From Berryella intestinalis (lineage in GTDB: Bacteria; Actinomycetota; Coriobacteriia; Coriobacteriales; Eggerthellaceae): a stretch of DNA of 64,000 nt. A program made the position numbers and the translations under genes. Of the stretch, positions 41,065 to 47,444 are shown piece by piece (positions within the stretch are counted from its first letter, which is position 1; each line of letters starts with the position of its first letter). The notes under the pieces were generated by a model that saw only the letters and a program-made list of their open reading frames with translations, had not been told where the DNA came from and ran no database searches. The stretch is taken from assembly GCF_000814825.1 (NCBI RefSeq), contig NZ_CP009302.1, positions 1,798,001 to 1,862,000 of the forward strand. The letters run 5' to 3'.

Positions 41065-41898
41065 TCACTGCGAAAAAGAACGCAGCAGCGCGATCTCTGC
41101 GGCGTACCCGTCCAGGCTGTCCTGGGGCGTCTCCAGATACAGGGGCAGCTTCCGCAAAACCGGGTGAGTCACGACGGCCTCGAATGCACCGATGCCGATG
41201 AAGCCCTCGCCCAGCCGCTCGTGGCGATCCTTATGGGCCCCAAGCGGGTTCTTGCTGTCGTTCAGATGCAGCGCCCTCAACCGGTCGATCCCCAGCACCT
41301 GGTCGAAGCGATCCAGAACCCTCTCCAGATCGCCCGCAATATCGTAGCCTCCGTCCCACACGTGGCACGTGTCCAGGCACACGCCCATGCGATCGCCCAG
41401 GTCGACGCGGTCGATAATGGCCGCCAGCTCCTCGAACGTGCAGCCGACCTCGGTCCCCTTGCCGGCCATGGTCTCCAAAAGCACCGTCGTGGTCTGGCCG
41501 GGACGAAGCACCTGGTTCAAAGCCTCCGCTATGAGCTCGATCCCGCGCTCCGATCCCTGGCCCACATGGGCGCCGGGGTGGAAGTTGTACATCTGGCCGG
41601 GCGTGTTCTCCATACGGGCCAGATCCTCCGCCAAAGTGACCAGCGCGAACTCGCGCGTCTGGGGGTTCGACGACGCGGGGTTCAGCGTATAGGGGGCATG
41701 GGCCAGGATGCGCTCGATTCCCGCCTCCGCGCACTCCGCGTGAAAACGCTCGAGATCGGCCGGATCGATCGCCTTGGCCTTTCCCCCGCGCGGGTTGCGC
41801 GTGAAGAACTGGAACGTGTTCGCCCCGATGCGGCGGGCATCGCGGGCAGCAGCGGCAAAGCCCTTCGCAATGGAAAGGTGGCACCCAAGCGTAAGCAT
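41065..41898 (-). CDS. nfo: Endonuclease IV
   Basis: 277-residue AP endonuclease of base-excision repair, an alpha/beta TIM barrel with three Zn sites. Seen: GCHLSIAKG, ARRIGANTFQFFTRNPRG, FHPGAHVGQG, LLETMAGKGTEVGCTFEEL, GVCLDTCHVWDGGYDI and ALHLNDSKNPLGAHKDRHE. Every family ligand block is present. The ATG at 41896-41898 has GGGAG upstream. It lies 48 bp after ecfT in the same direction, so it may be co-transcribed with the ECF operon. Confidence 0.96.
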   Translation of the reverse strand: MLTLGCHLSIAKGFAAAARDARRIGANTFQFFTRNPRGGKAKAIDPADLERFHAECAEAGIERILAHAPYTLNPASSNPQTREFALVTLAEDLARMENTPGQMYNFHPGAHVGQGSERGIELIAEALNQVLRPGQTTTVLLETMAGKGTEVGCTFEELAAIIDRVDLGDRMGVCLDTCHVWDGGYDIAGDLERVLDRFDQVLGIDRLRALHLNDSKNPLGAHKDRHERLGEGFIGIGAFEAVVTHPVLRKLPLYLETPQDSLDGYAAEIALLRSFSQ

Positions 41899-41946: not shown

Positions 41947-42702
41947 TTACCAGGCGATGGCAATCGCCAACAGCGCGAGGACGACCGCGGCCGCCACGGC
42001 GTCGCCTGCGCCCAACGGGTACGACTTGTAGCCGCTCTCGCGCGTGCGGAGGTTGAACCCGCGCACCTCCGCCGCGATTGCGGCACTGTTGGTCTTCCTC
42101 ACCGACGACACGAGCAGGGGCACGGCCAAAGGGGCCATAAGCCGCAGGCGCCGTATGGGACCCGCAGCGTCGAAGCGGACGCCGCGCGCGGTTTGGGCCT
42201 CCACGATCCCCCGCATGTCGTCCATGAACACGGGAACGAACCGAATGGCCGACGAGAACGTGAACGCATACCGGTAGGGAACGCGCAGCACCTTGACGGC
42301 GGCGTTCGACAGGTCGTTCGGATCGGTCGCCGAAAGCGCCACGTACAAAGGCACGGACGCGGCAACCAGGCGCGCAACCGTCGATGCGGCGGCCCGCACG
42401 CTGCCGACGCCGATGTAGCCCCAGGGCAATCCCACCAAAAGCGCCCCTTCGGGAGTCGTGAGCAGCTGCACGACGGCCAACAGCGCCGAAAACGCCGCCA
42501 CGGAAAGCGCTGCGAACGCGCTTTTGCGCAGCATCCCGGCCGCCGCCGCGAACGCGAACCCCGCAGCAAGCAGCGCCCCCAGCGCCGCAGGGGTCTCGGC
42601 GCAGAAGCAGGCCGCCGCGAACACGAGGGCGCCCAGGAATCGCGTGACCGGGTTCAGCCTGTTCATCAGCGTACTTTCCACACGATCGAACGATCCGCTC
42701 AT
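41947..42702 (-). CDS. ecfT: ECF transporter transmembrane component (EcfT)
   Basis: 251 residues with five or so membrane segments. The two coupling-helix motifs that dock the ATPases are IVEAQTARGVRFD and AAIAAEVRGFNLR (usual form Ala-Arg-Gly). It is the membrane scaffold linking ATP hydrolysis to the S component. ATG at 42700-42702 overlaps the stop of the upstream ATPase (ATGA), so translation is coupled. The dedicated arrangement of S, A, A' and T together suggests a group I ECF system. Confidence 0.92.
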   Translation of the reverse strand: MSGSFDRVESTLMNRLNPVTRFLGALVFAAACFCAETPAALGALLAAGFAFAAAAGMLRKSAFAALSVAAFSALLAVVQLLTTPEGALLVGLPWGYIGVGSVRAAASTVARLVAASVPLYVALSATDPNDLSNAAVKVLRVPYRYAFTFSSAIRFVPVFMDDMRGIVEAQTARGVRFDAAGPIRRLRLMAPLAVPLLVSSVRKTNSAAIAAEVRGFNLRTRESGYKSYPLGAGDAVAAAVVLALLAIAIAW

Positions 42703-43532
42703 CGCGCATCACCCCTTACCGCCGCCTCGAGGGCATCAGCCATCCGCCCTACCGTGCTCGCCGTCGCAACGCCGGGGACGGCGCGCGAACCTTGCCGGGC
42801 CAAACCCAAAGACACCCCTATGATCTGCGGAGGCAGAAGCGACGCCGCTTCGAGGGCGGCTTCGTTGCGCAGCACCTCGAACACGGGCCCGTCATCGACG
42901 ACGCGGCCGGCGTCCATCACGATCGCCCGCTCGGCGAAGTCCGCAACCACCTCCATGTCGTGGCAAACCATCAGCACGGCGGCCCCCTCCTCACTCAGGC
43001 GGCGCACCGCCCCCATGACGGCCATGCATTCGCGGAAATCCAACCCGCACGTCGGCTCGTCGAGCACCAAGAGGGCGGGCTCGAGAACGACGACGGACGC
43101 GAGGGCCACCATCTGACGGGTTCCGCGGTTCAGCAGGTACGGCTGCGCATCGAGGTCGAGTCCGAACTCCGCCGAAACGCGCTCGACGCGGCCCCGCGCC
43201 TCGTCCTCGTCAACCTCCAGGGCGCGCAATCCGAACATCAGCTCGTCGAACACCGTCGCGCAGCAGATCTGGCGATCGGGGTTTTGAAACAGGAACCCCA
43301 CGCTTCGCGCGATCTCGCTCACAGGCAGGTCACGCGTGGGGACGCCGCCGACCAGCACTTCGCCGCTTCGAGGCTTCAGCAAGCCGTTCGCCATCCGCAA
43401 AGCCGTCGATTTTCCCGCCCCGTTCGTCCCGATCAGAGCCGTGATGCTCCCGGGCGCCACCGAGAACGAGACGTCGCGCAAAACCTGTTCGCCCGTAGCG
43501 TAGCCTCCGCTCACTCTCCTGAATTCGAGCAT
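42699..43532 (-). CDS. ECF transporter ATPase, second subunit (degenerate signature)
   Basis: 277-residue ABC ATPase. Walker A GTNGAGKST (35-43), Q-loop FQNPDRQ (Gln83), Walker B LLVLDE (154-159) and switch His191 in VCHDME are intact. The ABC signature is LNRGT (134-138) where LSGGQ is expected: Ser, Gly and Gln are replaced by Asn, Arg and Thr. ATG at 43530-43532. Its start lies inside the end of the other ATPase gene (22-nt overlap), and its stop overlaps ecfT. It probably pairs as a heterodimer with the ATPase at 43511-44368. Confidence 0.92.
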   Translation of the reverse strand: MLEFRRVSGGYATGEQVLRDVSFSVAPGSITALIGTNGAGKSTALRMANGLLKPRSGEVLVGGVPTRDLPVSEIARSVGFLFQNPDRQICCATVFDELMFGLRALEVDEDEARGRVERVSAEFGLDLDAQPYLLNRGTRQMVALASVVVLEPALLVLDEPTCGLDFRECMAVMGAVRRLSEEGAAVLMVCHDMEVVADFAERAIVMDAGRVVDDGPVFEVLRNEAALEAASLLPPQIIGVSLGLARQGSRAVPGVATASTVGRMADALEAAVRGDAR

Positions 43533-44368
43533 GCCAGCACCTCCCTCGCCGCACGAACGGCCTCCTCGACGCTGCGGCAGACCGGCCCCTCGTACAAACC
43601 CCTCCGCGTCAGCTCGTTTGAAAGCTCGGTGGATCGAGGAACGTTCACCCCCAGATCGAAAAGCCGGTCGGGGCGCTTCAGCAAATCGGTCGGGGCCCCG
43701 TGAAGCGCCACGCGCCCCTCATCCATCACCACCATGTCGTCGGCGAACTCCGCCAGAAGCCCGATCTTCTGCTCGACCGCCACCACGCATGCGCGGTTCT
43801 CGGCCGCATAGCTTTTCAGGAAGGAGAACACGGCGCGGGAACTCACCGGATCAAGCTCGGACGTCGGCTCGTCCAGCACCAGGACCCGCGGACGCAGAGC
43901 CAGGATCGACGCCAGCGCCACCTTCTGCTTCTGACCCCCCGATAGCGTAGATATAGCGCGGTGGCGCAGGTCGGCGATGCCCACGGACAACAGCGCCTCG
44001 GACAGGCGGCCTTCGATCTCGGACGGTTCGATCCCGAAGTTCTCGAGACCGAACAAAACCTCGTCCTCCACAACCGCGGTCACCATCTGGCTCTCTATGT
44101 CCTGGCACACGCTCCCCACGATTCGGGACAGATCGGTGAGCCTCGTTTCGCACGTATCGTTTCCGTCCACCGCCACGGATCCGTAGAAATCGCCGGGATA
44201 ACAATGGGGAACGACGCCGTTCAACGCATAGGTAAGCGTCGACTTCCCCGAGCCGGCCGCGCCCGTGATCCCAAGGAACGTCCCCGCCGCAACACTCAGA
44301 TCCACATCGCTGACAGCGAAATCGGAGCGCCCCCGGTACCGGAACGAAAACCCCTTCATTTCGATCAT
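43511..44368 (-). CDS. ECF transporter ATPase, first subunit (switch His replaced)
   Basis: 285-residue ABC ATPase. Walker A GAAGSGKST (36-44), Gln89 of the Q-loop, canonical signature LSGGQ (142-146) and Walker B VLVLDE (162-167) are present. The switch histidine region reads VAVEQKIG, so Gln200 stands where His is expected. The C-terminal ~50 residues form the extra domain typical of EcfA proteins. ATG at 44366-44368 with GAGGAG is chosen; the frame extends to 44428. It lies 82 bp after the S component. Confidence 0.92.
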   Translation of the reverse strand: MIEMKGFSFRYRGRSDFAVSDVDLSVAAGTFLGITGAAGSGKSTLTYALNGVVPHCYPGDFYGSVAVDGNDTCETRLTDLSRIVGSVCQDIESQMVTAVVEDEVLFGLENFGIEPSEIEGRLSEALLSVGIADLRHRAISTLSGGQKQKVALASILALRPRVLVLDEPTSELDPVSSRAVFSFLKSYAAENRACVVAVEQKIGLLAEFADDMVVMDEGRVALHGAPTDLLKRPDRLFDLGVNVPRSTELSNELTRRGLYEGPVCRSVEEAVRAAREVLACSNSGE

Positions 44369-44450: not shown

Positions 44451-45017
44451 TCAGCGCTTCAGAACCGCACGCAGCGGCACCACCAGGATCTGAGCGAGAA
44501 TCGCGTTGAACACCGCCGTTCCCACCACCATCACGCTGTAGGCGGCAAGCGCGGCCGGAAGCGCGATGCCGTTTGCCACCGAGAGGAACGCGACGAACGC
44601 ATATCCCGACGCGATCGTGGTGACGAAGGTGGTTGCGAACGGATTCGCATCGACTTTGCCGAACCTCAGCGGAACGAGGATCGCAAGACCGCACACCAAC
44701 CCTCCGACGGTTTCCGAGAAGATGTTGGCCAGCGGGGTCGCCGCCAGGAGGGGCAGCTGGCACATAAGGCCCGCAATGAGGCCGATGACCAGCGCCTGGG
44801 GGATGCGCGGACGCGTGAGGATGATGGCCAGGGCGTACATTGCGATGATGAAGTTGGGCTTCATGCCGCCGAACGTGAGAAACGACGCGACGGTGAGCTT
44901 CAAGACGGCTCCCGCCGCCAGCAGGACGGCGACCAGTATGAGGTCGCGCGTCGACAGGCCGCCCGACGGCGAATCCACGGAAACGGTCCTCTTCTCTGCG
45001 GTGGTGATCTCGGCCAT
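44451..45017 (-). CDS. trpP: TrpP-type S component, predicted tryptophan transporter
   Basis: 188 residues with six likely membrane segments. The stretch FGGMKPNFIIAMYALAI, followed by ALVIGLIAGL and then the TPLANIFSETVGG region, matches the pattern I recall for B. subtilis TrpP (GGMKPD..., VLVIGIVTGI). An upstream T-box with a Trp specifier and an ECF A-A'-T module downstream support tryptophan uptake through an ECF complex. ATG at 45015-45017 with a GGAGC-type site. Substrate is inferred, not shown. Confidence 0.82.
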   Translation of the reverse strand: MAEITTAEKRTVSVDSPSGGLSTRDLILVAVLLAAGAVLKLTVASFLTFGGMKPNFIIAMYALAIILTRPRIPQALVIGLIAGLMCQLPLLAATPLANIFSETVGGLVCGLAILVPLRFGKVDANPFATTFVTTIASGYAFVAFLSVANGIALPAALAAYSVMVVGTAVFNAILAQILVVPLRAVLKR

Positions 45018-45170: not shown

Positions 45171-45440
45171 AAAAAAGCCTGCCCTTCGAGACCCTTGCGG
45201 GTTTCAAAGGACAGGCTTATACGTACCTGCGGTGCCACCTTTGCTTGGTTCGGTGATCGAACCCTCTCACGAACATGCCAACACATGTCCTGCCTCTGAC
45301 GCGGGCTCACGGTCCAGATACTCGGCCCGGAAGGCCTTTCCCCTTTCCCTCGGCGAACCATTTGCCGTCCAGCTGCTGCGGGAATCTCAGCTGCGCCCGC
45401 TCTCTGTGAGTGCCTCGAACGACGTTACCTTCGCCTCATA
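45171..45440 (-). promoter_or_regulatory. Trp T-box leader (trpP-ecf operon)
   Basis: The T-box AAAGGTGGCACCGCAGG lies at 45226-45242 on the minus strand. It is followed by a terminator stem (AAGCCTG...CAGGCTT) ending in TTTTTT (45171-45176). In Stem I, CTCAC pairs with GTGAG. TGG (plus 45314-45316) sits in the specifier position followed by A and three bases before that helix, so the codon is Trp. The bulge reads TGGC, whose C can pair with G73, the discriminator of bacterial tRNA-Trp. The stem model is drawn by hand. The 130-bp stretch between the terminator and trpP shows nothing else. Confidence 0.9.
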
Positions 45441-45468
45441 GGTTTCGAGATATTCGGTTGTAGCGGTC

Positions 45469-45573: not shown

Positions 45574-47253
45574 TCAGGCAGACGCGTTTTCCAGCATCTC
45601 GCGCGCGTGAGCCACGGAGGCGTCGGTTGAATTGCCCGAGAGCATCCGCGCGACCTCCCGGACCCGGTCCTCCCCCGAAATCTCTCCGATCACCGTGGAC
45701 ACCCCGTCTGGGCCCTCGACCTTCGACACCACGTAGTGGCGCTGCGCATGGACCGCCACCTGGGCGAGGTGGGTAACGACGATCACCTGGTGGGTGCGCG
45801 CCAAATCGGCGACGACCTCGGCCAGGGCGTTGGCCACCGACCCGCCAACACCTGCGTCCACCTCGTCGAATACCAGCGTATCGACCGTATCCCGCTTCCC
45901 GAGGGCGACCTTGGTGGCCAGCATGACGCGGCTGACCTCGCCTCCCGACGCGATGCGGGCGAGGGGCCGCGCCTGCATGCCGGCGCCGGGACGATACATG
46001 AACTCGATCGACGACGGACCCTGGGCCGACCACGACGAGCGGTCCAGCCGCTCGATCGAACAGACCAGCTCCGCCGAACCCATCTCCAGGCGCTCGAGCA
46101 CCCGGTTCGCCTCGAGTTCGAAGCCGGGAGCCGCAGCGCGGCGGGCCTCGTCGAGCTCGTCGGCCGCCTCGGACAAGGCCGCCTCGGCCCGCTCGACCTC
46201 GCGCACGGCGGCCGCCTCGCGCAGCTCCGCATCGTCCACGAGCGACACTTCGTCGGCCGCCTCGTCGCGCCGCGCCAGCACGTCGTCCATACGGGGGCCG
46301 TATTCCCTCATCAGCCCTTGGAGGTGCGCGATGCGCTCCTGTTGGAGCGCCATCGTCTCCGCATCGAATTCAACCCCTTCGCGGTAGTCGCGCGCCTGGG
46401 CCGCAACGTCTTCCAGCACATACCCCGCCTCGCGCAGCGATTGGGCCAGCTCACCCAGACCGGAGTCGTATCGCGCGCACGACTCCAGCGCCGATGCCGC
46501 CGCGTTCAGCGCATCGAGCGCGCCGCCATCCGCCGACAGGGCCTCGTGAGCCGTTGCCGTCGCCCTCACCAGCGCTTCAGCATTTTCCGCCACCGAAAGG
46601 TCGTGGACTAGCTGCTCGTATTCGCCGGGCTGGGGGCCGATTTCGTCGATGCGCCTCAGGACGAACCGCGCCTCGTCGAGCCGCGCCGACGAGCTTTTCC
46701 GGGCCTCCCTCACGCGATCGAGCTCGGAGTGCGCCGCGCGGGCCTCGGACAGACGGGTCCGATAAGCCTCGAGCCGGTCGCGCACCTCCTCGCCCGCCCA
46801 GGCGTCGAGGATGCCCGCATGGTTCGCGGGCTTCATGAGCTGCTGATGCTCGAACTGCCCGCACAGATCGACGCTGGCGGCCACCGTGTCCGCCAGCTCG
46901 CGCGCACTGGCAAGCGACCCGTTCACGGAAACACGGGAACGGCCGTCGGAGCCCACGCGGCGCACGACCACCGCCTCCTCGGATGTCGCGGCCCCATCGG
47001 AAAACCCGTCTGGGTCCCCTAAGGCCCCGGCCGTTGCGGGTATCCCGAAGAACCGCCCTTCGACCTGCAAAGACGATGCGCCTTCTCGCACCATCGCCTT
47101 GTCCGACCGACCCCCCATAAGCAGCTTGAGGGCGGAAAGCAGGGCCGACTTGCCGGCTCCGGTCTCTCCGGTGAGGACGGTGAGGCCGTCGGCGGGCGCA
47201 AGCGAGGCCGAGCGGATGAGAGCGAGGTCGCTCACCTGTATTTCATCGATCAT
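45574..47253 (-). CDS. recN: DNA repair protein RecN
   Basis: 559-residue SMC-like ATPase that acts in double-strand break repair. N-terminal Walker A GETGAGKSALL, two coiled-coil arms (residues about 170-350) rich in Glu, Ala and Arg, and a C-terminal half with signature-like ASGGEVSRVMLATKVAL and Walker B LVFDEVDAGVGG, then VIVVTHLAQVAVHA. ATG at 47251-47253 with GGGAG is chosen since the family starts with IDEIQVSDLALIR; the frame extends to 47319. It is divergent from dtd. Confidence 0.95.
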   Translation of the reverse strand: MIDEIQVSDLALIRSASLAPADGLTVLTGETGAGKSALLSALKLLMGGRSDKAMVREGASSLQVEGRFFGIPATAGALGDPDGFSDGAATSEEAVVVRRVGSDGRSRVSVNGSLASARELADTVAASVDLCGQFEHQQLMKPANHAGILDAWAGEEVRDRLEAYRTRLSEARAAHSELDRVREARKSSSARLDEARFVLRRIDEIGPQPGEYEQLVHDLSVAENAEALVRATATAHEALSADGGALDALNAAASALESCARYDSGLGELAQSLREAGYVLEDVAAQARDYREGVEFDAETMALQQERIAHLQGLMREYGPRMDDVLARRDEAADEVSLVDDAELREAAAVREVERAEAALSEAADELDEARRAAAPGFELEANRVLERLEMGSAELVCSIERLDRSSWSAQGPSSIEFMYRPGAGMQARPLARIASGGEVSRVMLATKVALGKRDTVDTLVFDEVDAGVGGSVANALAEVVADLARTHQVIVVTHLAQVAVHAQRHYVVSKVEGPDGVSTVIGEISGEDRVREVARMLSGNSTDASVAHAREMLENASA

Positions 47254-47444
47254 GGGCGTCTCCCGATACCTGGTCACCTCGAACCCCCAGTATAGCAAGC
47301 GAACCCACCCGAAACCCAACCGCCATCCAACCTATGCGCCGATTCCCGTCGATGGATATTCTCCGAAACTTCGTCCCAGGGATCCGAAGCCCCTTCCGCG
47401 CCCCCAGCATCAAGTACACTGAGGATCGGGTGAAAGGAAGGCTC

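Follow-up and report, generated by a model that had tools for sequence, protein, structure and literature searches.

Can an ECF importer run on only one of its two ATP sites? The question is raised by a minus-strand operon of Berryella intestinalis, located in the 64,000-nt stretch of DNA analysed here (the window), where two adjacent ATPase genes each carry an altered motif. The genome is a single contig of 1.97 Mb, and the closest named relatives found were Adlercreutzia, Eggerthella and Enteroscipio. The four genes, all on the minus strand, follow the order S-A1-A2-T: the S component (188 aa, 44451..45017), probably of the TrpP family, given the PF17099 matches of its homologues; the ATPase A1, which is EcfA1-like (285 aa, 43511..44368); the ATPase A2, which is EcfA2-like (277 aa, 42699..43532); and a T component of the CbiQ family (251 aa, 41947..42702; PF02361, 2.8e-22). 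There is a 22-base overlap between the A1 and A2 genes and one of 4 bases between A2 and T. By the look of their sequences, the neighbours are a RecN-like protein upstream (45574-47319, minus strand) and an endonuclease IV-like protein downstream (41065-41898, minus strand). The best family matches of the ATPases were TIGR04520 for A1 (218.9 bits, below the equivalog cut-off of 315) and TIGR04521 for A2 (198 bits, below the cut-off of 330). The sequence of the T component contains two X-Arg-X motifs, ARG and VRG. The features of an ECF transporter are thus present, i.e. two EcfA-type ATPases, a CbiQ-family T component and an S-component fold; S is moreover encoded together with its own A-A-T module, as in group I (dedicated) systems. 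The operon specifies a dedicated ECF importer, the substrate of which is most likely tryptophan (see below).

The motifs of A1 are a Walker A (GAAGSGKST, residues 36-44), the LSGGQ signature (142-146), a Walker B (VLVLDE, with E167) and the segment VAVEQKI, where Q200 stands in place of the switch His. The codons of E199-Q200-K201 are found at 43766..43774 (minus strand, counted from the A1 start at 44368), and the three residues align without any gap on the T/S-H-D/N switch of solved EcfA1 and EcfA2 chains (4huq_B, 9kym_A, 4mki_B). An earlier note on this DNA had described A1 as having LSGGQ yet Gln200 for the switch His; both the motif reading and the alignment bear this out, and the position that it assigned to the His was right. 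A2 possesses a Walker A (GTNGAGKST), E159 and H191, and shows LNRGT (134-138; codons at 43119..43133, minus strand, counted from the A2 start at 43532) where LSGGQ is expected. This too had been noticed, but the lesion is larger than was said, since the signature is changed threefold (Asn for Ser, Arg for Gly, Thr for Gln). If the two subunits pair head to tail, their defects would come together in the composite site made of the A1 Walker side and the A2 signature (site I), and the other site (site II), which combines the Walker A/B and His191 of A2 with the LSGGQ of A1, would be consensus.

The same arrangement characterizes a clade of 151 non-redundant ATPase pairs from Coriobacteriia, Clostridia, Treponema, Synergistetes and others. 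Within the Eggerthellaceae, a search with A2 as the query gave relatives in 93 out of 138 genomes, and about 88 operons were read. The S-A1-A2-T order is kept in nearly all of the complete loci; E-Q-K is present in every readable A1, LSGGQ in every A1, and the Glu and the His in every A2. Beyond this family the pair, often as one fused chain, was found in Collinsella, Atopobium and relatives, Gardnerella, Butyrivibrio and other Clostridia, and further in Treponema, a synergistete, Oligosphaera and Moorella. Over the whole clade, the A1 switch His is lost in 151 pairs out of 151 (Glu-Gln in 150, Glu-Lys in 1) and the A2 signature is altered in all 151 (NRGT in 54, SRGQ in 45, SRGE in 24, NRGA in 21, others in 7). 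Site II is consensus in 151/151; the Walker A Lys of A1 is kept in 150/151 and its catalytic Glu in 151/151. Every pair of the clade therefore agrees with the proposal, made from the window alone, of two defects in one composite site and a consensus motif set in the other. The outer members have Gly to Arg as their sole signature change; the Ser is missing almost exclusively in the Eggerthellaceae, window pair included. Since many outgroups already have a Glu before the His (EHR, EHE, EHK), it is the step from His to Gln that is specific. Wherever the upstream DNA that was read extended far enough, the His-less pairs were accompanied by the S family; one locus outside the clade, L198, is without it.

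The rule extends to ECF pairs at large. We scored 250 non-redundant pairs, counting as Walker-side lesions any change of the Walker A Lys, the catalytic Glu or the switch His, and as signature lesions any change of the Ser, the first Gly or the second Gly. Double lesions fell in the same composite site in 161 pairs and in opposite sites in 0: the two kinds of lesion are always in partner subunits, hence in one composite site. Fitch parsimony gave 10 changes of the same-site state and 0 of the opposite-site one, on a tree with low deep support; taking into account how often each of the two subunits has its signature changed in the data, the probability of ten such lineages is roughly 0.004. Same-site doubles that arose independently combine Glu to Asp with LSRGE (L189) or Glu to Gln with LSMGQ (L196). 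In L275, LTGDE goes with Walker A Lys to Arg plus His to Ser; in L298, MPGGQ with Glu to Ser plus His to Asn; and in L361, LPYSL with His to Arg. Two loci, L253 and L264, are mirror images: there the second gene is without the His (and, in L253, has also changed its Glu to Asp) and the signature of the first gene is altered, so that the lesions again share one composite site. The EcfA1/EcfA2 pairs of the group II, shared type were intact in 16 cases out of 16.

Lesions of a single kind were also met. In site I, the second-gene signature alone is changed in 45 pairs and the first-gene Walker side alone in 3 (L183, L184 and L198); the first-gene signature alone is changed in 2 pairs and both signatures are in 4. 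In L183 and L184, which are fused Bacillales relatives, the first half has its Glu replaced (LDNAT, FDQAT) and its His lost, and both signatures are consensus. The earlier note had taken independent occurrence of the two changes as an argument against its reading. They never occur separately in the 151 pairs of the clade, but they do in 48 pairs outside it; since the lesions of these 48 pairs still lie in the site formed by the A1 Walker side and the A2 signature, it is a strict coupling that is refuted, not a one-sided motor. Strict coevolution of Gln200-type and signature changes was rejected for that reason, each being found alone outside the clade. There is thus no strict coupling between the two residues, yet the side is strongly biased. 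The presence of this one-sided pattern in 151 operons and in unrelated ECF transporters suggests motors that run on one working ATP site.

We estimate at roughly 0.72 the probability that the operon encodes a tryptophan ECF importer with one hydrolytic site and one degenerate site that holds ATP. The value is not set higher because a Gln may replace the His, as in MRP1, because the first Gly of LSGGQ varies in single-gene ECF ATPases and because A1 keeps its Glu. What remains goes mostly to a different reading, in which both sites hydrolyse ATP, Gln200 substituting for the His and the signature variant being tolerated, so that the asymmetry would be cosmetic or would merely tune the rate. One argument for it comes from the working site of MRP1, where mutation of the switch His to Gln or Asn leaves transport wild-type-like (PMC7756269). 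In addition, LSFGE or LSFGQ is found in single-gene ECF ATPases encoded beside T components (L252, L256, L257, L262, L265, L266, L269 and others); these are presumably homodimers in which both sites would be changed, which means that a change of the first Gly need not inactivate and that Gly to Arg alone is weak evidence. The idea that every signature change is inactivating was rejected on this ground. The invariance of the A1 catalytic Glu points in the same direction. However, neutral tolerance would scatter the lesions over both sites, contrary to the distribution of the doubles (161 against 0), and lineages exist where that site is without its catalytic Glu (replaced by N, Q, D or S) or its Walker A Lys, which makes hydrolysis at both sites rather unlikely.

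Much less probable is a situation where each of the two ATPases homodimerises in a complex of its own, so that their defects never share a site. Homodimeric A subunits do exist (BioM, PMC3246461), but the operon has a single T component, overlapping genes and a conserved gene order, and an A2-A2 dimer would be without any consensus signature. Besides, 42 of the 151 clade members have A1 and A2 as a natural fusion. The model of one fused protein, from Collinsella aerofaciens (pLDDT 90, pTM 0.85), can be superimposed on the double NBD of ATP-bound DppD (479 residues, 2.7 Å) and on ABCB1 in its outward-facing state (458 residues, 2.9 Å); the best fold matches of its halves include CbiO, EcfA1 and EcfA2. 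The head-to-tail dimer on which the note's argument was built is thus supported by a homologue that matches closed dimers over both NBDs, and we infer that A1 and A2 of B. intestinalis dimerise likewise.

It is just as improbable that the one-sidedness is a sampling artefact due to an A1 query. One collection scan did use the pattern LSGGQKQK, which favours intact A1 signatures, but opposite-site doubles were also 0 in the Eggerthellaceae set obtained with A2 and in a set of 42 pairs from regions chosen via the T component, independently of any ATPase motif (22 intact pairs and 8 same-site doubles). The mirror arrangement, seen in two lineages, does not fit with such an artefact either. Finally, decay of the operon, of which the two motif changes would be an early sign, is already contradicted by the open frames, by the conserved operon and leader, and by the recurrence of the same two single-residue changes across phyla. 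Other ECF modules of the same genome were also read; two T components (L242, C1:1567229-1567834; L243, C1:1795649-1796278) have no ECF ATPase genes within about 3.5 kb.

If one hydrolytic site is the right reading, the following scheme can be proposed. A1 and A2 would pair head to tail in a single heterodimer whose two ATP sites are not equivalent. The ATPase work would be done by site II; site I, where the Walker A, E167 and Gln200 of A1 face the LNRGT of A2, would keep its ATP bound and hydrolyse it slowly or not at all. It would thereby act as a hinge or latch, and about one ATP would be spent for each reset of the S component. The Walker A Lys and the catalytic Glu kept by A1 are consistent with ATP binding at site I, which is probably retained; because this Glu is still there, we can only infer that hydrolysis is lost. 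A relevant observation was made on the ECF-FolT2 transporter of L. delbrueckii: in its Mg-ATP structure, ATP is kept on EcfA and ADP is found on EcfA', and the ATP on EcfA touches the C-terminal Arg of the S component (PMC10368641). Taking the EcfA of that paper as EcfA1, i.e. the first gene of its operon, and given that A1 is EcfA1-like and A2 EcfA2-like, the degenerate site of the window pair corresponds to the side where ECF-FolT2 retains its ATP. In the L. delbrueckii ECF transporter either single Glu-to-Gln mutation abolishes both ATPase activity and transport (PMC10368641); both Glu being essential there, known ECF transporters do not, as a rule, work with a single site. A broader and quite speculative proposal, which we hold to be doubtful, is that one-site motors with a bias to one side have arisen repeatedly among dedicated (group I) transporters. 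The ATP on the EcfA1 side would be a fixed ligand that keeps S near the module, and that on the EcfA2 side would alone be spent; shared (group II) transporters, which must release S, would keep both sites. In that case, having a degenerate site would be what sets dedicated systems apart from shared ones in mechanism.

Degenerate ATP sites are textbook matter for several exporters. TAP1/TAP2, CFTR, MRP1 and Pdr5 resemble the present pair in having one consensus and one degenerate site, the latter being where the lesions of both NBDs meet; in TAP1, the switch position is also a Gln. The consensus site of TAP is made of the TAP2 Walker A/B and the TAP1 signature (PMC12422388), and the commonest lesion in human proteins is a change of the NBD2 signature (PMC7756269). 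Transport is reported to become uncoupled, slowed or inhibited once the degenerate site of TAP or Pdr5 is given consensus residues (PMC7756269). There are two differences: these proteins, in which TMD and NBD are fused in one chain, act as exporters or channels, whereas the window encodes an ECF importer with an S component, and their degenerate site is usually without the catalytic Glu, whereas site I keeps the Glu and loses the His. The earlier note's comparison with asymmetric ABC exporters is accordingly valid for the design, one active and one degenerate site, but not as an exporter-only feature: the ribose and nucleoside importers RbsA and NupO, with fused NBDs, are also predicted to have one degenerate site (PMC11466899). 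They are of another transporter type, and it is the second Walker A Lys that is missing there. ECF transporters were left out of that survey of degenerate sites (PMC11466899).

Among ECF transporters, the group II systems (L. delbrueckii ECF-FolT2, L. brevis ECF-FolT/PanT) are similar in having an EcfA/EcfA' heterodimer, a T and an S component, and ECF-FolT2 has the asymmetric ATP/ADP occupancy mentioned above, with ATP on EcfA (PMC10368641). They differ in that both sites are consensus, both Glu are needed and the S components are shared. YkoEDC, a group I HMP/thiamine transporter with a fused ATPase (YkoD), has a dedicated S component and tandem ATPases, and in the parts of its description that we consulted no remark on asymmetry was found (PMC5037267). 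The fused Bacillales relatives L183 and L184, which may not be YkoD, are without the Glu and the His in the first half and have a consensus signature in the second. The note's impression that the design is unfamiliar for ECF transporters is in keeping with the fact that no description of a degenerate site in these transporters was found among the open-access papers that were searched. The mechanism of ECF transport is now studied on group II systems, which have two intact sites with each catalytic Glu reported essential. A widespread branch that seems to work with one site amounts to a natural single-site mutant; it makes it possible to test which ATP drives expulsion of S, which drives its reset and what number of ATP each cycle consumes, and also whether dedicated and shared transporters differ in mechanism. 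The lesion pattern itself provides a defining sequence mark by which the tryptophan ECF importer can be recognized in gut Coriobacteriia and Clostridia.

The assignment of tryptophan comes partly from the S component. The window protein alone gave no match to PF17099 (TrpP), whereas 29 of 42 homologues did (best E-value 6.9e-13); NCBIfam has no named family for it. A search of PDB sequences with the S profile returned no match, and a fold comparison was therefore used. The AlphaFold model (pLDDT 92) had as its 14 best PDB matches only ECF S components (FolT, PanT, RibU, ThiT, BioY and the like), with TM values of 0.46-0.64 by query, weak E-values (at least 0.016) and a high Foldseek probability.

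The other indication is a T-box leader ahead of the operon (45204..45448, minus strand; Rfam RF00230, E 9.9e-12). Its score of 56.8 bits does not reach the gathering score of 93, and at the gathering threshold Rfam missed the T-box in the window and in 20 relatives; it was found by a permissive search of the window and by a pattern search in the relatives. The antiterminator core, AAGGTGGCACCGCAGG, with C as its variable base, is at 45226..45241 (minus strand) and a terminator hairpin followed by a T run, read from the sequence and aligned in the leaders of the relatives, is at 45171..45218 (minus strand). A T-box antiterminator core precedes A1 at 83 clade loci, some of which are from Clostridia and Synergistetes. 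Core motifs, terminator and conservation in relatives together support a divergent T-box. The register of the covariance model proposes UGG (Trp), at 45358..45360 on the minus strand, as the specifier codon; it is contained in the AAATGG of the specifier loop, the AATGG part of which does not vary among the 21 leaders that were aligned. The overlapping AUG (Met) was rejected: the antiterminator C fits the G73 that precedes CCA in the tRNA-Trp of the same genome, and not the A73 of the two tRNA-Met that were read. Codon register and discriminator bases thus favour UGG over AUG, without making it certain. Taken with the TrpP matches, the leader and the discriminator bases make tryptophan the likely substrate, and uncharged tRNA-Trp would switch the operon on through the T-box. 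Near the ECF locus of one relative, a match to the azaaromatic (yjdF) riboswitch was also observed (L080:5215-5315, minus strand, 61.9 bits).
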